Assembly (NCBI GenBank): GCA_023512835.1
Contig: CM042092.1
Location: 47,458,400-47,522,399 of the forward strand
DNA from: Taxillus chinensis
Taxonomy: Eukaryota; Streptophyta; Magnoliopsida; Santalales; Loranthaceae
DNA length: 64,000 nucleotides
Direction: 5' to 3'
Below, piece by piece: positions 3,053-64,000 of this stretch. Within the stretch, counting starts at the first letter, position 1, and each line of letters starts with the position of its first letter. The notes under the pieces were generated by a model, which made no database searches, was not told the DNA's origin, and saw nothing but the letters and a program-made list of their open reading frames with translations. A program made the translations under genes and the position numbers.

Positions 3053-3093
<41 letters not shown>

Positions 3094-15637: not shown

Positions 15638-15678
<41 letters not shown>

Positions 15679-22256: not shown

Positions 22257-22300
<44 letters not shown>

Positions 22301-22342
22301 CCGGAAAAAGAACCCTAACCCTAGAACAAGGAGTCTCCTCAT

Positions 22343-22421
22343 CCTTATATAGACCTCCCATTATCAAAACGACGTAGTTTTGATTAAGTGAAACCCATGA
22401 TCAAAACGACGTAGTTTTGAT
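22343..22421 (-). promoter_or_regulatory. E2 promoter: TATA box and paired palindromes
   Basis: On the minus strand, palindromes at 22421-22400 and 22384-22363 (ATCAAAAC...GTTTTGAT) precede CTATATAAGG at 22352-22343. A telo-box-like CTAGGGTTAGGGTT (22322-22311) and a GA-rich leader follow. Confidence 0.7.
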
Positions 22422-22977: not shown

Positions 22978-23210
22978 TCCCTTCATCAGCCTTCCCTTCA
23001 TCTTTAGGTACGGGTGCTACTACTTTGGATTAGCAGTAACAGCCTCTCTTCCACAGTCATAAACTATGGTGTCACTTGAAATGAAACCATCCAACGGTTT
23101 AGATGTACTGACAGGATAAAGGTTGGTTAGTTTCGGAGTGAAATCTGAGGGATACTCAGTAGCTTGTGTGGAGGTTGAATAGGTAGCTCCTGATGAATAG
23201 GTAGCTCATG
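22978..23210 (-). pseudogene. gag-pol linker of element A, continued
   Basis: The minus strand reads SSGATYSTSTQATEYPSDF, later SKPLDGFISSDTIVYDCGRE, then a PVPKDEGKA unit before the E2 boundary. Two stops interrupt it near 23023. No zinc knuckle is visible. It ends at the orientation switch near 23210. Confidence 0.6.
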
Positions 23211-26028: not shown

Positions 26029-26063
26029 TCCTCCCCACCTTAGGACTTTTCGTCCCCGAAAAG
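26029..26063 (-). other. E3 polypurine tract
   Basis: On the element strand CTTTTCGGGGACGAAAAG is followed by TCCTAAGGTGGGGAGGA, which abuts the LTR. The same block is repeated at 26197-26231, where it forms the end of pol. Confidence 0.88.
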
Positions 26064-26208
26064 ACAAGCCATCCACTACGACGCCGACAAACAAGGTAAC
26101 CAACAGCACAACAATTCACACGCAATCCAAAAAGATTAAATCATAAGCACAAACACAACAAGGTTAACTACCTCAATGCATGATGAAGATCTTGACATCC
26201 TCCCCACC

Positions 26209-27693: not shown

Positions 27694-27696
27694 TGG

Positions 27697-30946: not shown

Positions 30947-31354
30947 TCTGCACCAACACATATCAACAATATCTATTAACTACTGCGCACTAGTCAAACA
31001 ACCAAATTATGTGGTCATTCACTTAGACTCCCTAGGTTTTAATTAGCACAATAACATTGTCAATTTAAGCACAGTCAATCACCCAAGAGAAACAAACCAC
31101 AGATAGCCAATTGTATATTCAATACAAGCACATCATTATAGCAGCATTAGCAGATAATTTCTAGTGCCTAGATATGCACACGATCACACAAGATGTATGT
31201 ACCCAACCCAAATGCTTCCTAAGATGGTCTGATCGACCCTCAGTCAACCCAGAACACCTATAAGGACTGCGTTGATCAGGCGCCCTCCCTATAGTCTTCC
31301 AAGCTTCTAAGTGTCTATCAACCACCCCTCTCTAACTTAGGTCCACTAAACCAT

Positions 31355-31366
31355 GCTCTATTACCA
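31355..31366 (-). other. E3 primer-binding site, mutated
   Basis: Element-strand TGGTAATAGAGC differs from TGGTATCAGAGC at two positions. It lies 3 nt from the 5' LTR. Confidence 0.8.
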
Positions 31367-31369
31367 ACT

Positions 31370-37926: not shown

Positions 37927-38385
37927 TCTGTCACGCCCCGGATTTCCGACCCGCAGAAACCAGTTAGTGAATCCCCATGCTCGCACCCGAAGGGACAAGG
38001 GGTTGGTGAAAACACCGAGAAAGGGACCTTAGCATGGGTGCCGTCCCTAAACCATATCACACATATACATAAATCTCATTCCAAAGCACAGTACAAACAT
38101 ACATTCACACATGTTCTTTCCCCCGCTAGGTTACATCATTGTTTTCATAATCCAACAAAACAAATAAACACACATAAGGCCTTCACCTCTGGTAAACCTC
38201 CTAGCTCCTGTAAGAACCTGAAACAAATGAAAACAAACACAACAGGAGGGGTGAGCAACCACAGCTCAGTAGGGATCATGTCTCCCCAATGCATCCCAAC
38301 TCATTAACTAGTGTAGGCATGCGCTCGTGTAATGCTACATATACATTACCAACTCAATCATGTACACATGCATTCAAATACATAG

Positions 38386-41683: not shown

Positions 41684-42690
41684 TGGCACACACGATGGCT
41701 CGTCCTCCTACCGCTCCTCGGTGATCTACCAAAATCGGGGAGAAAGTGTCATATGATCCTCCTACACCTTCCTCAGCTCGTGCTGAGAAGTGGCCTGCAT
41801 CTTCACTGCTTCCGTGAGTTACTATCCCCAAATGCAGTCGTTTCTCTCAGCCCAGGTCCTCCAGTGTAGCTCCTCCTTCGACCTCTCCATCCGCGGCTGA
41901 CACCTTCCTCCCATCATGCATGGATCGTGATCCACATGATGAGGACGATAGTGTTTTCAACGAAATGACGAAGTATGCCGCGTCCAATGCCGAGCAAAGA
42001 TGTCTATCTGATTTGTACCCCTTCTCTCTTGGAGACACTAAGACTCTATGTTTTGAGAAGGGTCTGTTTACGATAGAAGACATAGACAACTTCTTTCGGG
42101 TAGTTAAGATGGAGATGAGGTTATTTCCGTCTCTGTACAAGGATGGACACTTGTTTGACGTCTTGCCATGTTGGTCTGAGGGTTATCTTCCAGACATAGC
42201 CCACATCGGGACCTTCATCGACGGAACTGCTGAGGATAGCAAACCTTGGAAAAATCTTTCAACTATCCTTATTCCATACCGAGTCATGATGCCGCACTTC
42301 ATGCTAGTTGCTTTTCTGATTCCGTCCAAGAAGATAATCTTAATTGATTCTCATCAAGTTATGGAGAACAATATTAGAAAGAATCAATGGGAACCATTGC
42401 ATCTTCGACTGACAGAAGTCGTAAAGCAATCCGGACTTTATGAAGAAATGGGCCAAACTCCTTTGGCTCCAACTGAAAAGCTGAAGGTGGTGGTCTGGAG
42501 CAAGAAGTAAGTGCCACAACAGCCCGATGGAGATAGCTGTGGAGCCTTTGTGTGTTTTTTCATCAAGTCATTCGTAAAGGTGGAAAAAAACTGGAACAAC
42601 ATCTGCAACTATACAATGGAGCAGACAATGGAGCTTAGAGAGAAGGCAGCAACAATGATCTTCAAGTATAGAAAGCCTTATGTGCCTTAA
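41684..42690 (+). pseudogene. third ORF of element C: C-terminal part with Ulp1-like protease
   Basis: Cut at its start by E4. The frame is followed from about 41686 with TGA stops in the linker (CGGTGATCT, CCGTGAGTT). It is open from 41920 for 196 codons, and after a TAA at 42508 continues to the true end PYVP and TAA at 42688. Candidate catalytic residues: His in MMPHFML (residue 126 from 41920), Asp in LIDSH (residue 143), then past the stop Gln and Cys in QQPDGDSCGAF. The His-Asp spacing of 17 and Gln-Cys spacing of 6 are those of yeast Ulp1. Homologous along its length to 53048-54112, at roughly half identity by eye. Not a free host gene: PPT and LTR follow directly. Confidence 0.82.
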
Positions 42691-42826
42691 TGTAAAATTT
42701 CATATCAAGGCTGAATTGTACTGATGTTGCTGACTTAATGGATATGGAAGTTATCTTTATTCTGTATGTTATTATTTTGCTTCACTTACTAGATCAGATT
42801 ACATAGGGTTTTGGCATATCCATAAT

Positions 42827-42836
42827 TGGAGGAGAT
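42827..42836 (+). other. element C polypurine tract
   Basis: TTGGAGGAGAT directly precedes the LTR start TGTTGGATC. It is located 137 bp after the stop of the Ulp1-like ORF, as in element B. Confidence 0.8.
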
Positions 42837-44268
42837 TGTTGGATCAAACTTAGAATTTGGATGATGCGGATAAAACCCTATGTAATTTGATTTGAGACAT
42901 TGCATGTTTTATGTTTAGTTGTTGCAAAAGATATGATCTTAATCCGGACCTGCACTCGTGAGAACAAATCTGAGGACAAGATACATAATCCTGATCCGGA
43001 CAAGAGTGAGTGTCCTCAAACACTTGGTAAATAACCAAGTCCTCACTTCATATGGAATAAGGATCATTCGTGCAGACTAAACACATAAAGCTACGGACTA
43101 AGGAATCTACGTCTAACCTTTAAACGGACTAAGTCAAATAGATGTAGAGTAAGAATCCTAGTCAAACAACTAGCACGGAGTAAGAAACAATTATCGCGGA
43201 ATAAAAGGCTAAATCTTCCACTCAAGCAGACTAAGGACAAGAAGACATGGAGTAAGAAATCCGAGTCTTTCATACATGTGGAGTAAGGAACGACTTGTGC
43301 GGAATAAGGACCCAAGTCCTTTGTTCGCACGGAGTAAGGAAAAGAGATTACGGAGTAAGGAATCCGACCTTTTACTCATGCGGAGTAAGGATGCGCTAAT
43401 ATGGAGTAAGCCATCCTGTCCTTTCAACTCATGCGGAGTAAGGAACTCTTGCGGAGTAATGAAGTGCTGATATGGAGTAAGCTCTCTGGACTTCTCCTTT
43501 ATACGTAGTAAGGAAGCGCTGACACAGAATAAGGATTCCAGTACCAAACTAACACGGAGTAAGCAATCAATGATACGGAGTAAGGATCCGAGCTTCATTA
43601 ACACGGAGTAAGAAACTTTACGATGGATTAAGAAGACATTACTTCAACTTATTTCTTCGCACTCAAAGCAGTCAATTCGCTGCGTCCCGATGTAAGACAA
43701 ACTCATTGATAACCTAAAGCATCTTACACGTGGATCGTACGGATATGTGGACACAACTTTAACTGCACTTGGGAACTCACAAAGACTATTGTGCTTTACA
43801 AACCCAAGATGTTGAGCTCCACATCCGCAGCATTCAAGGTAGAGAGAATTCCGAGGAACAGTCAATGTTGCACGTTGCTCGGAAGAACAAGTTCCAAGGA
43901 TGTTCCCAACAAATGGCTATATATATTAGACCTTGTATATTTTCATAAGTATTGATGCAGTTCTTGAGCACTTAAGTGAATAAGAAAATCTCATGTACAA
44001 GAGCCAATAAAGATAATAGCTGGGTAGTGTGTAAGTAACTAAACAAAGTGTAAGAGATTTGTTCAGTAGATCGAAAAGATTTACAAGCTTTAATCTGCTT
44101 CTATTTTATTGTAATTATCTCTTGATAATAAAATAACATACTTCCACTATCTGGTTATCTTCTGCATTGATTGTTTCTCTTAACCAGATAAGTGTTGTGC
44201 CGGAGTTAGACAAGAGTTTTGATAAAAGCATATTCACCCCCCCCCCTCTAGGCTTCTAGGGACCAACA
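42837..44268 (+). repeat. element C 3' LTR (1432 bp)
   Basis: Begins TGTTGGATCAAAC and ends GGGACCAACA. The downstream flank is ggact; the matching upstream duplication is lost. A C-run (about 44237-44246) lies near the end. It contains the degenerate repeat block 43091-43640. Confidence 0.92.
43091..43640. repeat. CGGAGTAAGGA repeats in Sirevirus LTR
   Basis: At least fifteen copies of a CGGAGTAAGGA core at irregular 20-45 bp spacing, many preceded by CATG or ACA and followed by short divergent spacers. The same array, reversed, is in the LTRs at 48190-48720 and 52220-52700. Frames of up to 131 codons here come from the repeat and are not genes. Confidence 0.9.
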
Positions 44269-47577: not shown

Positions 47578-48964
47578 TGTTGGTCCCTGGGAGCTTAGAG
47601 GGGGGGGGGGGGGAGGAGGTGAATAGGCTCTAATCGAAAACTCTTTCTTCGTCTCTGGCTCAGCACTTATCTGGTTAAATGATAAAATCAGTGTGGAAGA
47701 TAACCAGATAGTGAAAGTATTTTGTTTTATTATCAAGAGATAAATACAACAAAACAGAAGCAAATTAAAGCTAATGAAGCTTTTCGATCTACTGGAAACT
47801 CTCTTACACTCTGTTTACAATGACTCACACACTAGCCAATACAATCTCTAAAAACTCTTATACATGTACGCCCCTATGAAAATATACAAGTCTTAATATA
47901 TATATATATGCATCTGTTGGAAAACATTCTTGGAACTTGATCTTCTGAGCACAGTGTACCACTTAGTTTTTCTCATAAATGATTCTGCTTTAATTGCTGC
48001 AGATGTGGAGCTTGAGATCTTGGGTCTTTAAACTTTGAATTGCTTCATATGTCCCAAGTGCAATTAAAGCTTTGTCCACATCTCCGTGTGATCCACGTGT
48101 AAGATGATTTAGGTCTTCAACGAATTTGTCTTACATTGGGACACAGCGAGCTGATGACTTTAAATGCGAGGCCGATAAAGTGAAGCAGCGTCTTCTTAGT
48201 CTGTTGTAAAGTTCCTTACTCCGTGTTAGTGAAGCTCGAATCCTTACTCTGTCTCAATGGTTGCTTACTCCGTATCAGTTTAATACTAGAATCCTTATTC
48301 TGTGTCAGTATTTCCTTACTCCATATAAACGAAAGGTTCGGAGGGCTTAGTCCGTATCAGCGCTTCCTTACTCCGCACGAGTAAAAGGTTCGGATTCCTT
48401 ACTCCATATCTTCCTGTCCTTACTCCGTGCGAATAAAGGCCTTGGGTCCTTATTCCGTACAAGTCGTTCCTTACTCCGCATGAATGAAAGACTCAGATTC
48501 CTTACTCCGTGTCTTCATATCCTTCGTCCGTTTGAGTGGAAGACTTAGCTTTTTACTCCGTGTCTTCATATCCTTCGTCCGCTTGAGTGGAAAACTTAGC
48601 TTTTTACTCCGCGATAGTTCTCTCTTACTCCGTGCGAGATGTAGACTAGGATTCTTATTCCGTATCTTTTTAACTTACTCCATTTAAGTGTAAGACGTGG
48701 ATTCCTTAGTCCGTAACTTTAAGCATTTGATCTGCACGAGTGATCCTTATTTCGTATGAAGACTTGGTTATTTACCAAGTGTTTGACGACACTCACGTTG
48801 GTCTGGATCATGATTATGTATCTTGTCCTTAGCTTTGCTCTCACGAGTGAAGGTCCGGATTAAGGTTATATCTTCAGCAACAATCAAGAATAAAGATACA
48901 AGGTCTCAAATCAAATTACATAAGGTTTTATCCACATTATCCAAATTCTAGGCTTGATCCAACA
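47578..48964 (-). mobile_element. Sirevirus-like solo LTR
   Basis: TGTTGGTCCCTGG to GATCCAACA, 1387 bp, flanked by the target duplication tttat (47573-47577 and 48965-48969). Same family as 42837-44268 and 51604-52907, with the TCCTTACTCCG repeat at 48190-48720. It sits in the Tat-like non-coding DNA. Confidence 0.95.
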
Positions 48965-48969
48965 TTTAT

Positions 48970-51397
48970 ATATTTTAAATTTTTCGGAGAAGGAAGTTTT
49001 TAGCATCTAGGCCTTAAAACAAAAGAAAAATTAAAGCAAATAAAAAAGAAATACATTCTAATTTTAGAAAAAGAATGTGGATCTAGGCCCATGTGACAGT
49101 ATTGTATTTTTCTTTAGAAAACAAAAGTAGTATTTCCTTTTCTAGAAAAGAAGATAAAAACAATTTAAATTCAAATATGAAAATACTATCACAATTGATA
49201 TTGACCCAAGTAGACTAGGATATGAGCATTTAGGGCTCAAACCTCATGACCGCCCAGGCCTTGTTTTAATTTTTCTAGAAAATATGTTCTTTTGATTGTC
49301 CTTTTTTATTTTTGAAAAAAAGAAAAGAATGAGAGTTAAAACGGAAACCGTTTCAATTTAAAATATTTGAGAAAAGAAGTTTTAACAGTTTAAATATTAA
49401 GAAATTAAAGAGAAAAACCTAGTGGTTTTTTTGTGACCGAACTTGGAGATCTTCCTTCAAAAGTCTTCCTGAAAACAAAAAGGTTAAAAAGAAAAATGCA
49501 GCTTTCCTTCCCTGCTTTAAGTCTTCAATTCCCACATTTCCAGAATGCTTCCTCCTTGGTTTGGAATGTCTCATTTTAGGCGCTTGAAGATAAGTATATC
49601 TCTCTCCGTTTTTTCCTCTCAAAAATACCAGGATATTCTCTCTCTCAGCCTTTTTATGCTCTCCAAAATAATTTTCTCTTCTGATCCGTGATAATTGATG
49701 CCTTTAGAGGTTTATTGATAACCTATTTAGAGGAATTTTAGACAGTATCTGTTGGCTAGGTATTAATTGCATTCTTATATTTCCGATAAGTCAAATGGAT
49801 GTCCCGAGACCTCATTATGGCTCCCTGTTCCTGCATCTGAAAATAAATTCTCAAATAAATAATTTTCTTGGAATCATTATGGCTCCATGTTCCTGCATTG
49901 GTGGATAAGGGCTGAATGTATTTCCGAAGTATTAGCGCTGTTGGGAATTAATGGCTATGCAATCCCCATGGGGATTTTATTCATTTAATTATGGCACCTC
50001 CCTGTCTCTATGCTTAAAAATAGAGTCCCAAAGTACTGTTATTAATTAATGCACTTGGAAAAAGGATTTTTAGAGTCTCGATGCGTTGGAGCCGCTTCCA
50101 GGTTGACAGAGGAGTAGTCTTTGGAGTTATTCCGGATCATTGACTAGGTTTGACCTCCGGATCTGAGCTTATTCTGGATCAGCGGGCTTATTCCAGATCA
50201 TTGACCATGTTTGACCTCTGGATCTGGGCTTATTCCGAATCAGTGGCCTTATTCAGCATCAGTAGGCTTATTCCGGATGATTGACCAAGTTTGACCTCCA
50301 GATCTGGGCTTATTCCGGATCATTGACTAGGTTTAACCTCCGGATCTAGGCTTGTTCTGGATTAGCGAGCTTATTCCAGATCATTGACCAAGTTTGACCT
50401 TCAAATCTGGACTTATTCTAGATCAGGACTTATTCCAGATTATTGGGCCTTTTCCGTGTCATCCATACTCCAGATTTGACCAAGTTTGACCTCCAAATTT
50501 TGCGTTTCCCTAAAAAAATTCGTGTGTGGGCTCAACCGTTAACTAGTGACTCTACTTGGGCTTCTTTGTACTTCTCTTATTCGGACTTGCTGTGTAAGGG
50601 GAGTGTCTTTGTATATATACTGGGCCAAGGAGAAGCAAAACTGTCAATGTGGGACAAACACGCATGTGAAGAACCAAAATTTATGGAAAATAAGGCAGAT
50701 TTTTGGGAAAACTTCAAAAATTCATAACTTTCTCCACAAAGATCAGATTGAGGCCAAATTTAACTTGTTTTCCTCGCAATTCTGTCATCTATCTTCAAAA
50801 ATTGGAATCACTCAAAAAGGATCATCCATGTAGGAGAAAAGTAGGAAACACCGCATTGAGGTACATGACAAAGTAAGCATTCTTCCCGTCAGAATCAAAA
50901 AATCATAGTTAATTGCACAGAACTTGGATTATCCTCAAATTGGTTGGAAATGATAGATAAAGATGTTGTCTAACCAATTCAATTGACTTTGTTCAATTCC
51001 AACAAGTATTGAGGAAGTTATTGGCAAAATAGCGGGCTACACACCAACTGTCCAATTCAACTTCGTACAAAACTTGGTACTTTTGTCATAATCTTTTCAT
51101 TTCTTCTCGGAATCAAGTGTGTTCAAGTGCATTGTTCTCAAAATGTTATCCTCTATGACTTAGTGCTTGTCTTGGGGCATTTAAAGGTTTCCCAAAGTGG
51201 TCCTTCACCGAGTGTGGTTGTGATGTAACCCGGTCAAAATAAGGTTCAACAGCTGCCCCTATTTGTGCATTGTTTGTATACAAATAATGTGCAAAGATAA
51301 CCAGATACCCATTTTGTAGGGTTAGATCTCTTTGGTATTTTTTCCTATAAGAGTTGATTCCTTGGAGCTTGGCATTGCTGTGAAATTGAGGTGACAT
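48970..51397. other. non-coding region, no gene seen
   Basis: AT-rich, low complexity at 48970-49420. A 42-bp minisatellite lies at 50127-50495. CAACAGCTGCCCCTATTTG at 51249-51267 recalls sequence near the PPT of Tat-like elements. Together with 46100-47572 this may be one decayed LTR element into which the solo LTR inserted; I could not fix its ends. Confidence 0.5.
50127..50495. repeat. compound minisatellite, 42-bp and 19-bp units
   Basis: Five 42-bp units (TTATTCCGGATCATTGACTA then GGTTTGACCTCCGGATCTG and a short end) alternate irregularly with 19-bp units of the type TTATTCTGGATCAGCGGGC. The last units fade at 50400-50495. Confidence 0.88.
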
Positions 51398-51603
51398 TGT
51401 CACGCCCCGGATTTCCAACCCACAAAAACCGGTTAGTGAATCCCTATGCCCGCACCCGAAGGGACAAGGGGTTGGTGAGAACACCGAGAAAGGGACTTTA
51501 GCACGGGTGCCGTCCCTAAACCATATCACACATATACTAAAATCTCATTTCAAAGCACAGTATAAACACACATACATACATGTTCTTTCCCCCACGGGGT
51601 TAC
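51398..51603 (-). repeat. gypsy LTR fragment interrupted by element B
   Basis: The 206 bp from TGTCACGCCCCGG match the start of the E4 LTR (37929 onward), including CACCCGAAGGGACAAGGGG. It stops at GGGGTTAC, where element B begins. The remainder should lie beyond the right end of the window, with gttac as the probable target duplication. Confidence 0.88.
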
Positions 51604-52907
51604 TGTTGGTCCCGGAGAGCCTAAAGGGGGGGGGGGTGAATAGGCTCTCTAAAAATCTTTCTCTCTCTTAATGGCTTAGACACTCACTCTAGTTAAATGG
51701 ATAAAATCAGTGCGGAAGATTAACCAGGTAGTGGAAGTATGTTGCTTTATTATCTGAAGATAATTACAACAAGGCAAAACAGCGTTTTAGCTGCACAACA
51801 CTCTGTTATAGATACACACACTTGGCAGAAAGTCTCTGTCTCTTGGATCTTTACAAGATATACGCTTATAAGTGTATAAGTACAAGTGAGCATGCGCGCA
51901 TTTTTAATTTACATTGCTTCAGGCATATATATAGACACCTTAGAAATCTATCTTGGAACTGCATTTTCTGAGCAGTGTAAAGCATTGAAGTTCTTCATCG
52001 GAAAATGCTAAAGCTTTAACTGCTGCGGATGTGGAGCTCGAAATATTGGAAGCATAAGTTGTAATGAATTCTTTGCTTGATTCCAATTGCATTTGAGACC
52101 GCATCCACATCTCCGCGTTATCCACGTGTAAGGTAATTTAGGTCTACAACAGGTTTGTCTTACATTGGGACGAAGCGAGCTAATTGTAATTAATGCGGCT
52201 TGTAAATGATGAAGCAGCGTCTTCTTAGTCCGTCATAAGGTTCCTTACTCTGTATCAGCGAAGCTCAGATCCTTACTCCGTGTCAGTGGTTGCTTACTCT
52301 GTGTGAATGAAGTCCTGGAATCCTTGTTCCGTGTCAGCGCTTCCTTACTCCGCATGAGTAGTGGTTCGGAGAGCTTACTCCGCATCAGCGCTTCCTTACT
52401 CCGCATGAGTAATGGTTCAGATTCCTTATTCTGCATTTGATGTCCTTACTCCGCAACAATTGTCCTTGCTCTGTTCAAATGAGACTTGGATTTCTCAGTC
52501 CGTGTCTTCCTTTTCTTTAGTTCAGTGGAGTGACAATTTCGATTCTCTCTTCACAACAGGTCTCTCTTATTCCGTGCGAGTGGTAGACTTCGAATCTCAT
52601 TCCATATCAATTGACTTAGCCAAATTGAGAATTAGACACAGGTTCCTTAAGTCGTTTTGTCAAGTATTTAGTTCGCACGAAAAGTCCTTACTCCAGATAA
52701 AGACTCGGTTATGTACCAAGTGAATGACGATACTTATCATGATCCAGATTAGGATTATGTATCCTGTCCTTAGCTTTGTTCTCACATGAGTAGGTCCGGA
52801 TTTAGAGTTAACTCATCTGCACAGACTTAATGGTAAACATGAAACATCTCGAGTCAAATTACATAGGGTTTGTTCCGCATTATCCAAATTCTCGGTTTGA
52901 TCCAACA
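51604..52907 (-). repeat. element B 3' LTR (1304 bp)
   Basis: TGTTGGTCCCGGAG to GATCCAACA. The G-run at 51627-51637 is the counterpart of the C-run in the C LTR. TCCTTACTCCG repeats at 52220-52700. Confidence 0.93.
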
Positions 52908-52917
52908 ATCTCCCCTA
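52908..52917 (-). other. element B polypurine tract
   Basis: The element strand reads TTAGGGGAGAT immediately before TGTTGGATC. It is 140 bp downstream of the Ulp1-like ORF stop. Confidence 0.82.
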
Positions 52918-53047
52918 ATATGGATATGCCAAACCCTTTGTAATCTGATCCGGTAAGGCAGCAAGAAATAACACAGAGGTAAGGATTAAGGAGAACAGTT
53001 TCACTCAGATACAATAGGAATACATTAAGCCTTAGTACAGATATAAA

Positions 53048-54112
53048 TTATGGTACATACGGCTTACTATATTTGAAGATCATCCTTGCTGCATGCTCTC
53101 GTAGTGCCATTGTCTGCTTCTTGGAGAACTCGATGATATTTTTCCAGTCATCATCGAAGGAGGTAATGGATTTCAAGAAGTAGCAGACAAAGGCTCCACA
53201 GTTGTTTCCATCGGGTTGCTGGGGTACATTCTTCTTGTTCCGGATCGTCCCCATGAGTACTTCATCCTGACCAAGAGGCGGTAGATTCAAGTCTTCATAG
53301 AGAGAACTCTGTCTGATTGCATCCGACAAGGTTCGAACAAGACTCCTCATCTGATTCTTTCTAATCGGGCGGTCAACAACCTGATGAGAATCCAGAAGCA
53401 AAATTTTCTTCTCTTTGATCAGGAAAACAGTCAGCATGAAATGTGGGGAGACGACCCGGAAGGGAATGAAAACGATGGACAGAGAGGTCCATGGTTGGCT
53501 GTTCTCTGCTGTACCATTGATGTAGGATAGAATAATGTCCACAGCAGGAAACTGGTTTTCAACCCAGCAAGGAAGAATATCAAAATCAAGGCCTTCCTCA
53601 AGTAAAGAGGGAAATAGCCTCAACTCCATTTTTACCGCCAGAGCATAGTTGTCGATGTTGTCAGTGGAAAATTGTCCCTCCTCAGACAGTATGGTCCGGA
53701 TATCTTGAGGTTCGAAGGGGGACAAGGCAGACACACATCGGCGCTTGGCAGTGGAGGAGGCATAGGCCTTGGCCGCAGCAAGAATGCTCCCATCAGCATC
53801 ATCCAGATGCAATTCCTCGTATGATGGGAGGAAGGTGATGGCACCAGATGGAATAGCAGGAGTGGGAGAGCTGGTCTGGCCAGTGGAGAAACGGCTGCAT
53901 TTAGGCACGGGAAGGCCCGGAGGAAGAGCAGGTGCAGACCGTTTGCGAGAGGCAACGCCAGCAGTGGAAGGAGGGGAAGGATCAGATGATTTCTCCCCCG
54001 GTTTGGTAGATCGACGAGAGTGGGAGGGACTGGCCACGACTTGCGTTAAGTCCGCAATAGAGGTAGACAAGTCAGAGAAAGACGTGGCAAGCCGCTCAAG
54101 CTTTTGATCCAT
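53048..54112 (-). CDS. Ulp1/C48-like cysteine protease domain of third ORF (element B)
   Basis: Open for 354 codons. Residues 1-30 continue a helical stretch that reads further upstream in this frame (LDRLAEDSRLQTQALSDHV at about 54220-54165). Residues 31-95 are a Ser/Pro-rich linker with the basic cluster SRKRSA. Residues 110-350 are the protease-like domain, with probable catalytic His224 (SPHFML), Asp241 (LLDSHQ), Gln299 and Cys305 (PQQPDGNNCGAFVC). The 17-residue His-Asp and 6-residue Gln-Cys spacings match yeast Ulp1. By family it would cleave SUMO or a related isopeptide, or process an element protein; substrate unknown. The methionine at 54112 is probably internal: the frame upstream of it belongs to the same protein, joined by a shift near 54240. 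Confidence 0.85.
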   Translation of the reverse strand: MDQKLERLATSFSDLSTSIADLTQVVASPSHSRRSTKPGEKSSDPSPPSTAGVASRKRSAPALPPGLPVPKCSRFSTGQTSSPTPAIPSGAITFLPSYEELHLDDADGSILAAAKAYASSTAKRRCVSALSPFEPQDIRTILSEEGQFSTDNIDNYALAVKMELRLFPSLLEEGLDFDILPCWVENQFPAVDIILSYINGTAENSQPWTSLSIVFIPFRVVSPHFMLTVFLIKEKKILLLDSHQVVDRPIRKNQMRSLVRTLSDAIRQSSLYEDLNLPPLGQDEVLMGTIRNKKNVPQQPDGNNCGAFVCYFLKSITSFDDDWKNIIEFSKKQTMALREHAARMIFKYSKPYVP

Positions 54113-55866
54113 GGAGAGAGAGGTAGAGGAGAAGGCAGAAAGAAGCTCGGCACCGATGGCCCGGACATGGTCGGAAAGAGCCTGGGTCTGAAGACGACTG
54201 TCCTCAGCAAGGCGATCGAGTTGGCTAAGAAAGCAGCCTCAGAGAAAATCGTGGCAAAAGAGGCGCGCCCCAGACCAAAGGCGGGAGCAGGTGCGGGCAG
54301 GGCAGGTGCGGGCAGGGCAGAGTCGGCAGCAGCAGGAGAGGACGGTGGTTGTACAGCAGCAGCAGCAGGAGGGGCGGCAGATCCACTTTGACCGGAGAGG
54401 TCAATGGTAGGGATATCCGTAGGATAAGAGGGACCAGCCTCAGCAGGGACAGGTGTCCATGCGTCATGGGCAGGCCCAGAAGAGGCAGCAGCTGGAGATG
54501 CGGCCGTTAGGAGCGACAGCGTGACAAAGCCGTGATAGCAGTTCCAAATAAGCATTTCCTCCGGGGTCTAGGTGTGTTGAGCATAAAACACCCAAAGGGT
54601 AGGTTCTGGGATGTCAGCAGTAATGGCAAGGCTGAAACGCAGCCAGCAATCATTCAGTATGTCGGTGGAGAGATGGTCGAGATAGTCCTGGATGGCTGGA
54701 GAGTGAGCGCAAGAGGCTTCCGGAAGAACAGCAGCAACAGCCGCTGTGACCGGAGAGATGGGTGCGGGAGCATCAGGAGCAGCAGCAGCAGCGTCAGCAG
54801 GAAGAGATACAGGGACATCAGCAAGAGAGACGGATGTGGAAACCTCATGGAAGGGCGGCTAAGAGGGCCCTGCAGCAGTAGACGGGTCAGCCCGACCGCT
54901 GTGCAGCGAACTGCAGGAGCGTGCCGGAGCGGCAACAGACCGGATGCGGGAGTGAACTGACCGGAGAGTAGAACTAGCTTCGTGGCCCGAGCTGGCAACA
55001 GGCTCACCAACAGAACTCGCTTGCTGTTCTGAAGCGACAGCAAGGGCACGGGAGACTGGAGGGCGGCAAACGGTGAGGGTCCCGTCGGCAGTAAGATGGC
55101 AGAAGTAGTAGGACACCGGAAAGGGAATCACCAGTTCACCCTGGAAGTGCACGGGGTGAAGATGACGGAAGATTTGGGACAGAATCCGTCCAAAAGATGA
55201 GTTCCGTTTCCCATTCCACAACACCCAGAAGAGAAAGTTGCCCTAGTCAAGTGGCAGTGACTCAAAAACCGCATACATCGCTAGTAGGAGATCGTACGGA
55301 ACCGAGTCGTGAGCCGTGGAGCGAGCCAGAAGACACCGGCTGAGTATGGTGGCCATACAGCGGTGAGGACCATGGAAGGACTTCATTTTGTACTCCTTCA
55401 CCTTATTAGGACACCCCATGAAAGCAGCCGTGGCAGCAGCGTTTGGTCGAATGTCATCGCCAGCAGGAAGATTGAAAACATCCCGGATCACCTGAAGCGT
55501 GATCTTGATAGTTTCCCCTCGAACCACAGAAAGGATAAACTCCTCAGTGGAGGTGGAGTGGTGATGGAAGGCCAGGACATCCGACACTAGAAGATTGGCC
55601 GGGGCAGAGACAAGCGTGAAAAGGTTTATGTGCTCGAGTAGATGGCAAACCTCGTGGAGCCATGCTGGAGGATCAGAGATTCCGGACCAAACGACAAGAT
55701 GGCCAGGAACAACACCATAGAGAGCTTGGGATGCTATTGAGAGTGAAAGGGTGAGGAAGAAGGAGAGAAGAGCTTTGCCGGAACAGGTGCGCCGAGGATT
55801 TAGGGTTCCGAGAGTTGGTAGCGATAACCACGGTTGACATCGATGGTGTGGTATAAGTAGGATCAT
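54113..55866 (-). pseudogene. N-terminal part of third ORF (element B)
   Basis: One frame runs from ATG 55866 to about 54240 with three TAG stops (55245, 54861, 54570), then shifts into the Ulp1-like frame. The first 207 codons hold a segment with VVRGETIKITLQVIRDVFNL and, later, RSTAHDSVPYDLLLAMYAVF. This pattern resembles the putative plant transposon protein/Athila env-like family (Transposase_32 type); I hold that assignment loosely. An Ala/Pro/Ser-rich linker (codons about 270-520) follows, with low-complexity PAPALPAP and AAAAVQPPSS. At least one stop replaces a likely Trp (LPLD-stop-GN), i.e. G-to-A. Confidence 0.7.
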
Positions 55867-57504
55867 TTCCGTGGAAGCAAGTGGGTCTCGAGTTTAAGCG
55901 AAATGAACAGTGAGCTACCCGACTTCCTTATGTCATTAGAAGTGATGGATTAGCGTCGTCGAATAGATCTATGACGTGGCGGCTGTGCTAACCATTTAAC
56001 GATGACAGCTGTAGGCATACTTTCGGGTTTTTGAAAAGATAAGTATCGGGCTTGATGCGTGCATTAAATGAATCATCATTAGCCCTCCTCAAAAATAAGC
56101 GATGAAAGATAATTACTTAGTTTATCGCGAATTGAGATTTCCAAGAGTCAGGAGGAAATAAACCGACATTCATCCGGAGAAGGATAATCCATATAAAGAA
56201 CATCCGGATGATACTGACTAACTGTAATCATGATAACAGAGTGTTGAAAAGAGATGATTCCTTTGCGGTCTTGATGTCGAGGGAGTATGAGGTACCACAA
56301 CACCTCAGAATTCTGAGACATTTGATACGATAGAGCAATAAAGTGCAAAGAGAATCTGAACCTGTGACATAACAAATAGATGCTTTGAAGAGCAAGTCTC
56401 GTCAGGTTCGGGTTAGTTCGGATAAACAATATAAGAGCATAACGCACAATCCATACTAAGAAGAAACAGAACTTATGCATAAAAAGTTAAGTGCTAGACA
56501 CATACAAACGAAGTGAAAGCCATCATACTGAAATCAATGTATGTGTGAGATAATTAACACATAAATCCAATAGGTCAACATAGCCAATCCTTCATACTGA
56601 CAATGAGAGCAAAGATTAATTAGATTTATATGACTTCATCCATTAGAGAATGTATGAGTAAAAATGGAAGGAAGAGCACATGATGTATGATGTTACAACC
56701 GACTGTCATGCCTAAAATGCTAGGAAGAGGAAGATAACAGCCAAGCAATCCGCAATTCCGATTCAACAGTGCAAATCCAATCAACTTTATGAGTGAGAGT
56801 TATAGGGCGGAACATCCAAGACATATCAGAGAGGCATTACATAATAATAAGCATTCTCTTGCCCTGTAGTCATGCCTTTTGCTGAAACAGGGGGCCTTAC
56901 TTAAGATTTAATGAAGTATTCTCTCCCCCTGAGATCAGTGAATCATTTTGATGCGATCTTCTCGAGGATGACTCCCCCTCAGATAGACAGCCAGGAAAGA
57001 GGTCATGAAGTACGAATCCGAGGGTTTTACTTAAATAATAGAGAGAGCAATTTCTCCCCCGTTGACTTTTAGAGCCTGTCAAGACGTTTCCTATTTAACA
57101 TGAATCGTGAGAAACTGCTGCCTATCCTTGATTTACTTCACTCAAGCAGCTGATTGGCAGACACAGTGAATTTCCACTTTCAATCCGAGCTATCCCAAAT
57201 CATTTCTCAACCATGCATCTTAGATATTTCAGTCAGTCATTAAATCATAAGACATGTGATGGAAGATGAATTGAATTCATGACATCAGAATAGGATTTGT
57301 GTCATATAAATTTAATTATGTTTACTTGATTAACTGTCAGTCCGGATAAGCAAGCATCCTCCCAGCTGAACTTAGTGAGAAATATCAGAGCATTTACACG
57401 ATTAAAGTAAGATAGTTAAACATGAAGTTCAGTATCTATCACTAACCACGAAGTACAACAATGCATGTTCTAAAAGTAACTACTGATGGATAACAGGTGA
57501 GAAG
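55867..57504 (-). other. post-pol non-coding spacer of element B
   Basis: Collinear with 1-1511. No ORF of note. 56820-57070 carries several CTCCCCCT or CTCCCCCG tracts (AGGGGGAG on the element strand) set in related 60-120 bp blocks, which look like extra polypurine tracts. Confidence 0.75.
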
Positions 57505-59301
57505 CTATGCAGAAAAGTCAAGCATACCTAATTTGAGAAGAAGTTCAAAAAATCTTACATCAGGTAGGGGCTTTGTAAGTATATTCGCCAGTTGATCTTC
57601 AGTAGCAACATGTTCCAGGGATATGTGATTTTTAAGAACATGATCGCGAATGAAATGATGCCTGACCTCAATATGTTTTGTCTTTGGATGCAAGACGGGA
57701 TTATTGCTGATAGCAATAGCACTGGTATTGTCACAGTAGAGTGGAACAGATGTCATGTTGAAACCGTAGTCAGTAAGTTGACTTTGCATCCAGAGAAGTT
57801 GTGCGCAGCAACTCCCAGCAGCTATATATTCCGCTTCAGCAGCAGATGTTGATACGGAATTCTGCTTCTTACTGAACCAAGAGATCAATCTGTTTCCAAG
57901 GAATTGGCATGTACCACTGGTGTTTTTCCTGTCTATGCGACACCCGGCAAAATCAGCATCAGAATATCCGGATAAGGCGAAGTTGGACTCTTTTGGGTAC
58001 CAGAGTCCCAAATTAATTGTCCCTTTAAGATACCTTAATATCCGTTTTACGTGAAGCATATGTGACTCTTTGCGATTCGCCTGATATCTTGCGCAGATGC
58101 AAGTTGCAAACATTATGTCCGGGCGACTTGCTGTAAGGTACAGCAAGGATCCAATCATCCCTCTGTACTCAGTCACATTCACTGATTTTCCATCAACATC
58201 TGGGTCTAACTTGGCACTGACTGGCATTGGAGTTTTGACGAGAGATGAACCTTCCATACCAAACTTATGGATTAAGTCACGAGTGTACTTAGCTTGGTTG
58301 ATGAAGATCCCTTCCTTCAGTTGTTTGACCTCAATCCCAAGAAAGTAGGATAGTTCTCCCATTATACTCATCTCAAACTTTCCAGTCATCAACTTAGCGA
58401 ACTCATCACAAAGTTTCGGATTAGTTGATCCGAAAATGATATCATCCACGTAGATCTGTACGATCAGAGTATGTGTCTTCTCTTTCCGTAAGAATAGCGT
58501 GGCGTCAATCTTCCCTTTTTCTAAGTTGTGAGCAAGTAAGAATTCCGAAAGTGTATCATACCAGGCTCTTGGAGCTTGCTTCAATCCATACAAGGCTTTC
58601 CTTAGTTTGTAGACCAGATGTCTAGCCTTTGGTTCAACGAAGCCTGGAGGTTGTTCAACATATACCTCCTCTTGAAGGACTCCATTTAGAAATGCACTCT
58701 TGACATCCATTTGATAAACTTTAAAGTTTTCGTATGAAGCATATGCCAGGAACATTCTGATTGCCTCAAGTCTGGCTACTGGGGCAAAAGTTTCGTCATA
58801 GTCTATTCCTTCTTCTTGACGATAACCCTTGGCTACCAGTCGGGCTTTGTTTCGGATTACGATTCCGTCCGTATTAAGTTTGTTCCGGAACACCCATTTA
58901 ACTCCAATGACTTGTTGAGACTTTGTCCTTGGTACAAGAGTCCACACATCATTCCTTTTGAACTGATTCAACTCTTCCTGCATGGTGTCTATCCAATTTG
59001 AGTCTTGAAGAGCTTCTTCCACCACTTTTGGCTCTATTTGCGACAAAAAGCAAGAGTAGAGGCACATGTTGGAGGTGGCTGCTCTTGTTCCAACACCAAC
59101 AGTAGGATCACCAATCACTTGTTCTTGAGGGTGGCTTTGAGTCCACCTATAGTTTTGCGCAAGTGGTGGTGAATACTCAATGATTTGAAGCTCTGTCAGA
59201 TTAGGTGGTCCTTGTTCGTCCACTGATTGAGCTTCTTCAGGGCCAGTGTTATTAAAATTAACAGGTTCTGGAGTATTTTGAGGTTCTCCATTGCTGTTCA
59301 T
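57505..59301 (-). CDS. pol: copia reverse transcriptase and RNase H (element B), open frame
   Basis: 598 codons without a stop; the frame start at 59301 is internal to the polyprotein. Residues 1-115 are the acidic linker. RT follows: [50 protein letters not shown] and the catalytic YVDD in [13 protein letters not shown]. The connection has [19 protein letters not shown] and [16 protein letters not shown]. RNase H has [37 protein letters not shown] and [14 protein letters not shown], ending GMLDFSA. The [10 protein letters not shown] and GELSYFLG motifs are of the Sirevirus type. It is the best-preserved coding stretch in the window, suggesting B is the youngest copia copy. Confidence 0.93.
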
Positions 59302-59316
59302 TTCCGTATCAACTGG

Positions 59317-59829
59317 TCAGAATGGACTGGAAGGTACTCCGGTATTTTGAATATCCGAAAGAATATATCCGGAGTTATGTGGAAGTCCCGAGTCCGATTC
59401 ATCTGTAGCATCATCTGCATCATATCTTCGTTCTTCATTGGTGCCACATGGTTGGTTAGTAGAGGTGACAGGAACATTCATAAACTTTGAGTAATCAACA
59501 TTGTCATCTTGATCCTGCACATTAGAACTTGAAGAACCAACTTTCGACCAATCCATGTTAGTTTCATCAAAAGTCACATGGATAGATTCTTCAACTTTGA
59601 AGAGTTTTCTATTGAAAACCCGATAAGCCTTGCTATGAAATAAATACCCAACAAATATCCCATCATCGGATTTTGGTTCAAATTTATTCCGGGATTCTTT
59701 TCTATTGTTCAGTACGTAGCAAGTACACCCAAAAGTCCTGAAATGTGAAATAGAAGGCTTTCGGCCTTTCCACATCTCGTAGGGTGTTTTCATGGTTAAT
59801 TTATTTATAAGAGTCCTGTTCTGAACATA
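59317..59829 (-). pseudogene. pol: copia integrase C-terminal part (element B)
   Basis: The frame 59793-59317 opens MKTPYEMWKGRKPSISHFRT and continues with the post-core module FNRKLFKVEESIHVTFDETN and an acidic linker. A TGA separates it from the RT frame; the corresponding codon in A is GGA, so this is a G-to-T change. E5 cuts the gene at 59829, in the sequence coding for QNRTLINKLT. Confidence 0.88.
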
Positions 59830-59872
59830 TGTCAGGCCCCGGATTTCCGACCCGGGGAAACCGGTACATGAC
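59830..59872 (-). repeat. 43-bp LTR end in inverted orientation next to the E5 PBS
   Basis: TGTCAGGCCCCGG...GGTACATGAC is the minus-strand form of the gypsy LTR terminus (compare 14467-14509). A plus-strand element should have the reverse complement here. The preceding copia sequence ends GAACATA. Confidence 0.85.
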
Positions 59873-59876
59873 TATA

Positions 59877-59888
59877 TGGTATCAGAGC
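59877..59888 (+). other. E5 primer-binding site
   Basis: TGGTATCAGAGC, exact, plus strand, four bases after the inverted LTR end. Confidence 0.95.
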
Positions 59889-60959
59889 ATGGTCTAGTTG
59901 GCCTAGGGTAGTGGGCGGATCTGGTTATCTTGAGTCCTTTGGAGGAACCTGGAGGGACGTGCCTGATCAACACGGTCCTCTTTGAGCCTCTAAGGTGTAC
60001 TTGGGGTAGTCCAGACCTGAGGTAGGATTTGCATGCATTGGCATTAGGGCACTAGTTGCATTTGTTGTCTTTGTGTGATTGTGTGGGTAACCGAGATAAA
60101 GCATGTGAGAGAAAATATGAAGAACATGTTTTAAATTGTGCAACTCTGATTAACTCTGATTTTATGATAACTTGGGTTGTGTGCTTGTGGAATTGCTGTT
60201 TGTGCAATGTGGTTTAATGAGAACTGAAATGTGTGCAGTGTGTGTAATTGCATGGATAAATGGTTTGAACGTGATAAAGTTTCAATTGTGCAACTCTGAA
60301 ATTTTGTGATAATTCGAGCATGAAAACATGGAAAAGAATTTGTGGTATTGAAACTGAGTGCTTGTGAACGTGAAGCTTGTGAAATGTGAACGAACAAAAA
60401 ATAAAATAAAATAAAATACATTAATGTTGGTGTTTTGTGAATGATTGAGTATGTGCCTTTGTATGGTTTTGTATGGAGGAAGCGATGTTGTGTTCAAAAC
60501 GATGAGATATCCACTTAAGTATAGATTATATGGGCAATGTAAAGGTGTGAACTTGTTGTAAGGGTGTGAACTTGTATAGTCTGTGATGTGCATCCATGAA
60601 TTTGTGTGGTGATAATGCATGTTTTGAGGTTAGTTATAGTTCAGAATGCCTAGTCGGTAATGGTATTGAGATTATTGAGTGATAACCTAGAGCGTTGCCT
60701 TTTCGTGGAGCCAATGTCTCCGAAAATTGTGACCGATACGACTATTGAGGTAGCAAAGAAGCCCGCCCCCCCAAGCTAGGCAAGTGGGAGAGCTGCAGGA
60801 TGTAAGTAATGAGGTTGGCATCTTAAGCCTGGTAATTCAAGAGTTGAAGGATGAGATTCGACAACTGATTAAGAGCGAGGTACGTCGAGAGCTATCAACC
60901 CACATCATCGGGGGATCTTGGGTGAAGATTAATTGAAGCATAGTTGTCCTGATCAGCAG

Positions 60960-61270
60960 AAAGGGGCTCAAGAGGTAGAGACCGGTTTCCCAAAGGGGTT
61001 GTTCTTGCGGTGGACAACCGGGACATTGGAAAAGAGTATGGCAGGAAGAAGTACTAGTGTCGCGTCTTGTGGAAAAGTAGGACATCTCCAGACAGCCTAT
61101 TTTGGTAAAGCAAGTCATGGTGCTAGAAGACTGGGCTCAACGAGCCAGGGATAAAGCAAAATTCAAGTGAGGCTAGGAGGAGAGCATGGCGAACTTTCCT
61201 TAGTCAAAGGGTACGATTTTGATTCTTGCGTGTTAAGATTGTTGTTTAGTGGTGGTATCATATTCCTTTA
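60960..61270 (+). pseudogene. degraded gag zinc knuckles and protease strand in E5
   Basis: Two overlapping frames read CSCGGQPGHWKRVW (a CCHC knuckle missing its second and last Cys) and SCGKVGHLQTAYF (a knuckle whose last Cys is Tyr). They are followed near 61205 by KGTILILAC, the remnant of the strand preceding the protease active site. The rest of protease is gone. Confidence 0.65.
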
Positions 61271-64000
61271 ATGATAGTGATCGGTTGAGTCTCGTCTTGG
61301 ATTAGGTGAGGCTGGGTGAACCTTTGATTGTTGCGTTTCTAGCAATTTAATTAAGACACTTGTGATAGAGGGGTATTTTCGTTGGGTGGGCTCTTGAGCC
61401 ACTGTTTTATGTTAGGTGAGGCTTAGAAGGTCGTTTGAGTTACCATTTTGGAAGGACGTAGTTGGTGACCTACTAGAGAATAAATGAGTAAAATAAATAA
61501 ATATATATATATTGATACCAAAAGACTAATAAATTACTAATGGTTATAAACAGTTGTTGGAAAGAGTTGGTGGTTTTAATATGGTCTAAAGTGTTAATCG
61601 TATCTTTGTGTGGTAGTCAATTTTGGGCGCCCGTGTGTGAGGAAAGTAATAAATGTTCTTGTCTCACCCCTAATACTCTAGCGTAGGTGAGATTACCTCC
61701 TGGCCTAGCTAGCCTAGGAAGCTGGAGGCATGAGTTAGTGGCTTGTGGGTAGTGTGTGACCCCGCTGTGGCAACCTTGAGTAATAGAAATGTGTTTTCTT
61801 GTGAGTAGAGGTTTACGTAGATGTCTTACTTAAGAAGGATGTTCTTTTGGTAACCTTTCCAAGTGTCAAGGTTGAGGGAGGAAATTGCCACTAGTATAAC
61901 CCACCCCTTGAGTCATTGAAATCTAAATTGATTGGCGAGAGTGGTATGTGGTTTTAAGATTCTTATGGGTGTCCTATGGAAATGGCTGCAAATTCTTGGG
62001 TGGCCAAACATTGACCACGTGTCATGCTGGTGGTGTGTGAAAGACCTTGGGTAATGTTCATAGGATATGTGGTGAAATGGGTTTGCGTATGTATAAAAAT
62101 GTGATGAGTTCTGGAACTAGGTTACGAGTGAGTTTATAGGATCGTGCCCAGGTGAACCCAATCGGTCGCAGGCAAGCGAGTGAGATTGGGCAGGCCTTGT
62201 TTGGGTTTTTCCTCATAATTGGGAGACACCTTCCGAGGGGTTGAGGATGTACTCCTGGTGGTAGGACCATTCCGTTAATCCATGTCGTGTGGGTAATAGG
62301 CCTAAAAGAGGCGAGGAGGTGGGTGCTAGTATGTCCTCTCTTACATGTGTTCTACACAGTAGTTTATTTCGTGTGTTGTGGTTGTTTTGTTTTGTTGTGT
62401 GTGTTGCATATGTGTTAAAGGGGTATAGCAAAGTTCTTATGTGTGGGTCTCATGGCAGACATATGCAGAGGAGTAGGAGGTGATGCATGCGCATATTATG
62501 TGCGGTGTGGGATGAAGAGGGGTGTTATGTGTAATGTTGATGCTATTCCTTGTCACGTGTGATGGCATGCTAAGTTAAAGTGTGAAAGTATTGATGAGTT
62601 GTGATTCACTGAATGGAGTCAGATGTGAGTTTTGCTTGTAAGGGGTATTAGTGCTACCCCTTTGGGGGAGATTTGTGTCTTGCGGCTATCATGGGGTCCT
62701 CATGTTACATATGTTCTTCTTGAAAGTCTTTCGTGTGCGTTTTGATGCGGTAAGTGACATGGTTCACGCCATCAAAGTGTTGGTGTGTTTGGGAGCTACG
62801 TGAATGTCCCGAATAAGGAGTTTGCATGCCTCGTTTCTTGTGCCTACACGGAGGAATTACAGTGACCATATTAAGCTGCGGTTAAAGCCTGAGTATTTCT
62901 TGGTCCATTTGAGTGTTTTGCTGGTGTGTTGAGATAAAACGTAATAGTTGATATAGCGGAGTTGATGGGCCATGAGGTGGAGTATGTCTTGGAGGCAAGG
63001 GATTTTCTTGTGACCTGTGAGTGGTGACACAGAGGATTCCATTGTGGTCAGGTTGCATATAGGAGAGTTTTCAGTGTGGGGGGGAGGGGGGACTATGTTG
63101 TTCACAGCTACTCGGCGTCAAGGGATTCCTATCGCGTGGTCCGTCTGCTGACTTGGTAAGGCATCATCTCTTGGGTTGTACGGTAAGCCTCAGTTGTGAA
63201 GGCTGTGTGGGACCTTGGCAGATCTCTATTTGACCGTGATCAAGGAGGTCGATTCTCAAAGTCGGTGACTAGTGATAGCCCGATAGTGGGTTTTGGTCTT
63301 ACCATGGTTGTGTGTGTGGTGCTGTATTTACTATTTTTAGTGCATCCTTGGACTTCGTTGGGCGCCAGGTTGACTGCGACCGAGTGGTTAAGGGCACACT
63401 CCATTCTCGTGTTTCTATGTCTAGGCTTGTACTCCGTTCTGCGTCACCATTGGCGTTGGTGGGGTTTCAATGTTCCTTGCTTGAGTGAGGTGGTTTTCGC
63501 AGTGATGATGGTGCTGCTGAGGTGAGCTCCCTGTGTGGGAATGTGATTGTGGTTTGCATAATGTTATCCTCTTTGTTTGTGTTTCATTGTGACCTCATTG
63601 TGCTTGCTGTTAGGGTGAGGTCTACTTATGGGCTGCGGCTGCGTTGACTTCAAATCCCAATTGTTGGGTATTTTACGTTGTGGAGTGTTGGTCCCATCGT
63701 GCCGCGAGTTGGCATCTCCAACATTTGTGGTAATGACTGCCTTATGTGTTGTTTTGATCTTTTCGCGTTGTTTCCTATTTGGTTTCCCTTTTCGGGGACG
63801 AAAAGTCTAAAGGTGGGACGGTTGTGAGGAAACTCCCAACGGCTGCGTTTGTATGGTATTGGCGACTGGGCAGTGGAACGTTAAACGTGTAGTAGTGTTT
63901 TGTGAGTTGTTCATTGTGGTGGTGTTGCTGTGAGTTGGTCTGTGACCTAGGTAATTGGTTAAACGTGTTGGCAATGGGAGTATATGTCTTACATCATAGT
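61271..64000 (+). other. E5 interior without recognisable coding sequence
   Basis: Reverse-collinear with 17040-19673 of E2 at high similarity. A pol-end/PPT-like motif is at 63787-63822 (CCTTTTCGGGGACGAAAAG then TCTAAAGGTGGGACGG). Frames (e.g. 63196-63525, 109 codons) have no domain and are not kept intact in E2. Confidence 0.65.

Follow-up and report, generated by a model that had tools for sequence, protein, structure and literature searches.

The window analyzed here, a 64,000-nucleotide stretch of the Taxillus chinensis genome (GCA_023512835.1, contig CM042092.1, positions 47,458,400 to 47,522,399), carries on its minus strand a copia-type long terminal repeat (LTR) retrotransposon, termed element B, in which a third open reading frame (ORF3) lies between pol and the 3′ LTR and has a C-terminus resembling the protease Ulp1. 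We regard this anatomy as virtually certain. An earlier reading of the letters alone (hereafter the sequence-only reading) had proposed an ORF of approximately 930 codons, broken by three stops and one frameshift, between the end of pol at 57505 and the 3′ LTR, and such an ORF was present. Four open pieces of one frame on the minus strand (55893–55246, 55242–54862, 54858–54571, and 54567–54049) are separated by the three stops, and a fifth piece (54238–53051, minus) follows in another frame. The start had been placed at 55866, while comparison with uninterrupted copies, by which the ORF3 bounds of Table 1 were set, moved it to near 55736. The polypurine tract and 3′ LTR had been assigned jointly to 52917–51604; the LTR is there, of which the proper part begins at 52907, position 52917 taking in the polypurine tract. 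A 5′ LTR of element B was found neither in the window nor within 7.6 kb beyond it. Upstream of its integrase part, at about 59.88 kb, the element is apparently interrupted by another one, as judged from repeats. A 206-bp sequence (51398–51603) that stops exactly at the outer edge of the 3′ LTR recurs at 37929–38134 with 91% identity, and it seems from this match that element B was inserted into a copy of that repeat.

Table 1. Features of element B and of a sister element in the window.
Feature	Position	Strand	Remarks
Pol of element B, copia reverse transcriptase/RNase H part	57505..59316	−	RVT_2, E = 2.4e-75
Pol of element B, C-terminal integrase part	59317..59871	−	SH3_retrovirus, E = 1.2e-26
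Linker between pol and ORF3	55960..57504	−	Two Sirevirus-type polypurine octamers AGGGGGAG, starting at 56979 and 56930
ORF3 of element B	53048..55736	−	Three in-frame stops, one frameshift; lacks the usual start codon
N-terminal domain of ORF3	55069..55736	−	Conserved into lineage II, 28% over 225 columns, E = 3e-25
Helical, coiled-coil-like stretch preceding the protease domain	54014..54238	−	Coiled coil judged by eye from the sequence
Peptidase_C48 (Ulp1-like) domain	53075..53512	−	PF02902
Putative catalytic residues of C48	His 53441-53443, Asp 53390-53392, Gln 53216-53218, Cys 53198-53200	−	
Terminal polypurine tract adjoining the 3′ LTR	52908..52918	−	
3′ LTR of element B	51604..52907	−	1304 bp, TGTTGG...CCAACA
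Array of LTR motif GGAGTAAGGA	52242..52452	−	Five of the six matches of the LTR (≤1 mismatch); none in reverse
Diverged sister copy of the ORF3 C-terminus	41707..42687	+	49.5% amino acid identity; His, Asp, Gln, and Cys kept; broken; followed by an LTR with the same motif
LTR of the sister element	42700..44000	+	Approximate bounds; 15 motif matches

The Pfam family PF02902 (Peptidase_C48) covers residues 243–388 of the last open piece of ORF3 (53512–53075) with E = 1.6e-9 and 38.4 bits against a curated cut-off of 20.7, in agreement with the Ulp1-type C-terminus proposed in the sequence-only reading. The cut-off was also exceeded by all three uninterrupted copies that were read from the lineage to which element B belongs (lineage I; 33.7–40.8 bits) and by both long ORFs of a diverged lineage II (50.3 and 52.1 bits). 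The His, Asp, Gln, and Cys residues that had been pointed out with the 17- and 6-residue spacings of Ulp1 were located at positions 266, 283, 341, and 347 of this piece, and the same spacings occur in lineage II. This spacing pattern matched one of the 82 open stretches of the window, compared with a mean of 0.45 in 20 shuffles, which is within chance, so that the case is built on the profile match together with the copies found and the selection described below. When a profile of seven sequences was compared with solved structures, Ulp1 (E = 2.5e-5) and SENP1 (E = 3.2e-5) ranked first, with the catalytic residues of Ulp1 aligned. A Foldseek search with a predicted structure of low confidence gave 11 PDB matches at E ≤ 0.001, all of them SENP1/2/5 or Ulp1. 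The ORF in the so-called envelope-like position thus probably encodes a Ulp1-like protease, as judged from its sequence, and its substrate tag may possibly be SUMO or another ubiquitin-like tag.

Among 39 lineage I copies, His was kept in 37, Asp in 38, Gln in all 39, and Cys in 33. The catalytic Cys is hence the least conserved of the four, and in most lineage I copies shown, Phe takes the place of the Trp that comes after the catalytic His in Ulp1; both features would suit a C48 fold retained as a module that binds SUMO or another tag without catalysis. This we consider improbable, as none of the four residues is missing from either lineage II ORF or from the three uninterrupted lineage I copies that were read. 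The domain likely has a conserved role as an enzyme. Another assignment would make the enzyme a processing protease for Gag or a polyprotein, comparable to its relatives in adenovirus and African swine fever virus. Viral proteases of the same fold do appear among the VIA rows listed, and the adenovirus endoprotease family PF00770 was a weak second match of a sister copy (E = 0.056), but the best sequence matches are Ulp1 and SENP1. Furthermore, a Pol_BBD beta-barrel domain, i.e., a protease-type region, was detected in pol of copy c22, and pol of copy c07 contains LDSGCSGHM, which we take to be the copia protease site, though this simple pattern was positive in only one of four copies. A processing role is therefore decidedly unlikely. 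The sequence-only reading had suggested two uses of ORF3, of which Gag processing loses weight given the protease-type region seen in pol (modest evidence), while the countering of silencing would still be the likeliest.

The genome from which the window derives (521 Mb in 264 contigs, of which nine measure 48–60 Mb and suggest n = 9) was searched with the 396-residue C-terminal piece of element B. This gave 105 scored matches out of 10,494 first-look candidates, figures that are not copy numbers, at 84–93% identity (100% for the window itself), and 21 of the 105, including that of the window, had no stop within the matched part. Three copies chosen for their open frames (L031, L032, and L033) were retrieved as uninterrupted ORFs, of which L031 and L033 encode 911 residues from a common first conserved Met. 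Ten lineage I copies were then sampled by taking every fifth match between ranks 2 and 47 together with 16 kb of surrounding sequence, the presence of C48 being the criterion of selection. A 3′ LTR follows ORF3 after about 140 bp in all ten, and reverse transcriptase lies upstream on the same strand in nine, at the standard distance in seven and displaced in two; none was found in the remaining copy. Four copies run from 5′ LTR to 3′ LTR over about 13 kb; the 3′ LTR of one of them is shortened. In these four, a primer site of the type AGTGGTATCAGAGC, presumably that of tRNA-Met, follows the 5′ LTR, and the gag region contains two CCHC motifs in three copies and one in the fourth. Pfam detected RVT_2, rve, and a copia-type Gag. 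Target duplications with one mismatch flank two of the four (TCATG/TCCTG and ATGTT/GTGTT), while none was recognizable in another and the fourth was unreadable. The paired LTRs differ by 2.6–3.8% mismatches (35/1355 to 52/1379), corresponding to an age of roughly 1–1.5 million years at the rate of 1.3e-8 for grasses.

Besides these copies, lineage I has sister families with 45–69% identity to element B. Of three C48 copies from these families, those in the window (Table 1) and in c42d retain the complete set of catalytic residues in broken frames, and that of c12d lacks the Cys. Two LTR-like stretches of the same group stand in opposite orientation at 42638–44269 and 47607–48964, one of them behind the sister ORF3 copy. 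A further element, C, whose copia pol is about 80% identical to that of element B, occupies 1551–2543 and 11785–13119 (minus) and is interrupted by an LTR element at about 2500–10864, which has LTR pieces at about 2500–3532 and 9835–10864 with 96–99% identity. Beyond the window, element C contains the N-terminal domain of ORF3 at 45% identity, and C48 was not found in 6 kb there.

A genome search with PF02902 gave 150 scored matches of 4,308 candidates (again not copy numbers), of which 149 reached at least 42.6 bits and exceeded element B. Two of these loci, L057 and L058, represent lineage II and have long ORFs of 1059 and 844 residues with C48 at the end, of which the ORF3 of L057 comprises 997 residues from its Met. 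Its identity to lineage I is 28% over 225 columns in the N-terminal domain and 31% over 170 columns in C48, and the C48 side of L058 is 24% identical over 256 columns. Upstream of ORF3 in L058, a copia reverse transcriptase/RNase H region is located on the same strand with 77.5% identity to element B, while the L057 sequence begins downstream of that place; in the three lineage II loci where this region was seen, the identity is 77.5–79.4%. The same layout with a homologous ORF3 in both lineages indicates that ORF3 with its C48 domain predates their split, unless it was exchanged between them. When eight 1-kb windows upstream of further PF02902 matches were inspected, two contained reverse transcriptase/RNase H, two the linker or ORF3 of lineage II, and four neither, so we do not claim all 150 matches as copia elements. 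The best PF02902 match of the genome, L055 (contig C191:94603-95094, minus; 81–84 bits), lies in a 697-residue open stretch and is a different, perhaps host-type Ulp1 protease, its likeness to element B by BLASTP extending over only 12 residues.

ORF3 is under purifying selection in at least two deep lineages, with a ratio of nonsynonymous to synonymous substitution rates (dN/dS) of about 0.25–0.3. For the C-terminal piece of element B compared with three sister families, dN/dS was 0.28–0.29 by the Nei–Gojobori method and 0.24–0.28 by the Yang–Nielsen method, the latter covering five of nine aligned pieces. Since neutral decay after insertion is included, these sister-family values should be raised by it. 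Shorter pieces gave 0.17 (c12d), 0.22 (c42d, partly out of frame), and 0.27 (c17), and the N-terminal domain gave 0.17 and 0.27. Between the two lineage II copies, the ratio was 0.31 overall and 0.24 for C48. The selection was also examined in variants of C48 among the 39 lineage I copies, for which variants carried by exactly two copies were not considered and the loci L002 (= c02) and L007 (= c07) were each counted once. The ratio of synonymous to nonsynonymous variants was 35:42 for those shared by at least three copies and 36:98 for those of single copies (Fisher p = 0.007); the former would have arisen mostly while the elements were active, or recurrently, and the latter mostly during later decay. 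Six shared variants are stops, which disappear once C>T/G>A changes are removed, leaving 8:6 shared against 15:70 single variants (p = 0.003). The same comparison gave p = 0.045 and 0.09 for the middle region of ORF3. With sharing defined at two copies, p was 0.049 for C48, 0.11 for the middle region, 0.0004 for the N-terminal domain, and 0.0002 for reverse transcriptase (16, 16, 15, and 8 copies, respectively).

These results bear on the view that the domain is a functionless fragment captured from the host, or part of a Mutator or CACTA element nested in one ancestor. Mutator-like and CACTA elements are well known to have captured Ulp1 (PMC2836005, PMC2528002). Nevertheless, the position of ORF3 is shared by the sampled copies and by two lineages whose ORF3 sequences are 22–31% identical, which together with the dN/dS values already contradicts such a functionless capture and also the single chance insertion that the sequence-only reading had named as its alternative. 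No transposase domain was detected in open stretches of at least 200 residues of L057 and L058, where an RVT_1 stretch of L058 is on the other strand. We therefore give this view very little credence.

The ORF3 protein consists of an N-terminal domain of about 220 residues, a part rich in Ala, Pro, Ser, and Thr (52% of residues 251–520), a helical coiled-coil-like stretch, and the C48 domain. The sequence-only reading had raised a Transposase_32 (PF20167) relationship; element B itself gave no match in the Pfam search, while three of six relatives matched weakly over the N-terminal domain with E = 1.4e-4 at best, always under the cut-off. That reading had also labeled this part as env-like, which found no support. 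A hydropathy plot gave one marginal stretch of 1.66–2.08 in three lineage I copies, at or above the classical value of 1.6, and a best value of 1.5 in one lineage II copy. A true envelope-like protein that serves entry or movement between cells, with a protease domain as an incidental addition, would account for the position after pol, and such genes of Sireviruses are termed envelope-like and said to share transmembrane and coiled-coil domains (PMC3414828). However, the hydrophobic stretch sits inside the conserved N-terminal domain, and the middle part has the composition given above. As there is no convincing membrane segment, ORF3 is hardly an envelope protein, and this explanation appears most improbable.

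The LTRs of both lineages contain arrays of short motifs. With at most one mismatch, GGAGTAAGGA occurred 6–12 times in five lineage I LTRs and 11, 15, and 2 times in three sister LTRs, the last being an exception to the arrays, compared with 0.02–0.10 in shuffles. It is mostly preceded by C in lineage I and arrayed in one orientation, and copy c47 has none in its internal part of 10.3 kb. GGAGTAAGGA was also absent from two LTRs of lineage II, which contained GACTCGTAG 14 and 10 times. Exact 10-mer repeats exceeded the shuffles in four of five LTRs, that of c22 being the other one. Tandem Repeats Finder reported no array in the LTR of element B, whose motif units are about 74% alike. A simple pattern for the LTR repeat with a CGG-CCG core likewise gave no match in this LTR, and lineage I is for this reason called Sirevirus-type rather than a proven Sirevirus.

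The polypurine tracts also differ between the lineages. The terminal tract of lineage I reads TGGGGGAG in nine of ten copies, with T for the first A, and c42 and element B differ at one further base. Between pol and the 3′ LTR, there are two octamers in element B and one to three in nine of ten copies, and c02 has two further upstream in a displaced linker. Each of the two lineage II loci has five, the octamer AGGGGGAG being present in both L057 and L058 once before ORF3, three times between ORF3 and the LTR, and once directly before the TGTTGG of the LTR. The extra exact octamers hence precede ORF3 in lineage I (56930–56979 in the window, and in the copies) and mostly follow it in L057 and L058, a difference that may tell how ORF3 or the tracts moved.

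Among the closest known systems are the Sireviruses, i.e., copia elements of the SIRE/Maximus group with an envelope-like gene or eORF-3′F. The primer site, taken as tRNA-Met-type, is one of the features in common. Gene order, the third ORF after pol, the presence of several AGGGGGAG tracts, CCHC motifs, and the coiled-coil-like stretch are others (PMC2829016, PMC3414828, PMC6317226), and the tract arrangement in L057 and L058 is close to that described for Sireviruses (PMC2829016). In contrast, lineage I has its extra exact tracts before ORF3, whereas 89% follow it in that survey, which also reports two Sireviruses with a variant octamer (PMC2829016). A further difference is the Ulp1-like protease that can be identified at the end of the third ORF here. 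Third ORFs were found in 74% of SIRE elements and divided into 19 groups with no or little mutual similarity, with no domain reported as common to most, and their function was queried; the main text of that paper, in the part available, makes no mention of Ulp1, C48, or SUMO (PMC6317226). The name envelope-like dates to SIRE-1 (1998), and the origin of the gene is described as unknown and its function as unproven (PMC3414828, PMC6317226).

Among the roles considered for ORF3, we tentatively favor nuclear anti-silencing through LTR-motif targeting and tag removal, as a possibility rather than an expectation. The reasons are the precedent of VANC, the LTR motif arrays that differ between lineages, and the connection of yeast Ty1 with SUMOylation. 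VANC proteins of the Mutator-like VANDAL elements remove methylation from their own family via specific sequences, which are often tandem motif repeats differing between related elements (PMC5735166), and some VANC genes carry Ulp1 (PMC13317346). In yeast, lowered SUMOylation of unknown factors was suggested to activate Ty1, which is a copia element (PMC8585004). By analogy, the ORF3 protein would be a nuclear one whose substrates are proteins conjugated to SUMO or a similar tag. Its N-terminal and variable parts would guide it to LTRs of its own lineage by way of their short-motif arrays, where the C48 protease would strip tags off the bound silencing proteins. The element's own copies would thereby stay expressed, the logic of VANC and Kaonashi (KIU) having been reached in a retrotransposon.

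Several points weigh against such a role. The Ty1 activation was caused by loss or release of the host Ulp1 from nuclear pores (PMC8585004), and plant Kaonashi proteases were judged unlikely to act on SUMO (PMC6117577). The LTR motif arrays could instead be promoter parts. DUF1985 was detected neither in the N-terminal domains of six relatives (E ≤ 10), nor in three whole lineage I ORFs (E ≤ 1), nor in the L057 ORF (E ≤ 0.01). Alternatively, the Ulp1-like protease may act on tagged proteins of the element itself, such as integrase and Gag, or on import factors, aiding nuclear entry, stability, or integration. The anatomy and the selection fit this equally, the coiled-coil-like stretch could bind partners, and the SUMO system influences Ty1 retrotransposition (PMC8585004), but the lineage-specific LTR motif arrays are left unexplained, unless they are unrelated to ORF3; we hold it to be unlikely, with more in its favor than the processing or binding roles. 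The anti-silencing role may be carried further by regarding ORF3 as the retrotransposon counterpart of VANC, namely, a fast-evolving nuclear factor that recognizes the LTR array of its lineage (GGAGTAAGGA in lineage I and AGACTCGTAGA in lineage II), undoes silencing by means of its protease, and co-evolves with the array. Other eudicot Sireviruses may have divergent versions of this protein in their envelope-like genes. This extension is speculative and somewhat unlikely.

The resemblance to VANC and KIU consists of an extra protein with conserved and variable parts, in some cases with Ulp1 (PMC13317346), and of short-motif arrays in non-coding parts that differ between lineages (PMC5735166), the latter likeness being one of arrays only, from which one sister LTR is excepted. 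The differences are that VANDALs are DNA transposons, that they have DUF1985, and that anti-silencing was demonstrated for them and is conjectural here. Other mobile elements with a Ulp1 domain are Mutator-like and CACTA elements of plants, Ginger1, in which it is fused to the transposase, and Utopia-1_TSP and the nematode NeSL, in which it is N-terminal in the reverse transcriptase protein; none of these is an LTR retrotransposon. Conversely, an LTR retrotransposon with a conserved extra enzyme was reported from Phalaenopsis, where Gypsy elements known from two orchids contain an ORF for an AlkB-like RNA demethylase (PMC9289625). A survey of 121 angiosperm genomes with 4,811 Copia consensuses, filtered at five consensuses per species, listed 15 extra domains, all of them in elements of Gypsy rather than Copia type (PMC9289625). 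In the available literature, which does not extend to the domain lists of PMC6317226 (Additional file 4) and PMC9289625 (Supplementary Figure 1), no report of Ulp1 in a copia element was found, and the one review naming both Ulp1 and Sireviruses does so in separate contexts, with no Ulp1 in copia in the part available (PMC13317346); an earlier notice elsewhere is possible. Sireviruses are abundant plant elements and make up about 21% of the maize genome (PMC3599292). With a recognizable enzyme under selection after pol, the function of a puzzling gene becomes open to assays of enzyme activity, location, and silencing. If the favored role is true, Ulp1 would have been put to use by an LTR retrotransposon as it was by Mutator-like elements, which would point to SUMO or a related tag as something over which plant genomes and their transposons have contended repeatedly.

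The remaining repeats of the window include an LTR element at 14467–22980, of which LTR pieces in 14467–16367 and 21073–22980 have 95–99% identity. Its internal part recurs inverted at 59885–63809, where such an element seems to interrupt element B. A likely LTR pair was also located at 23951–32996, with pieces in 23951–25558 and 31370–32996 that are 97–98% identical, and units of about 61 bp form a short tandem array at 50122–50426.

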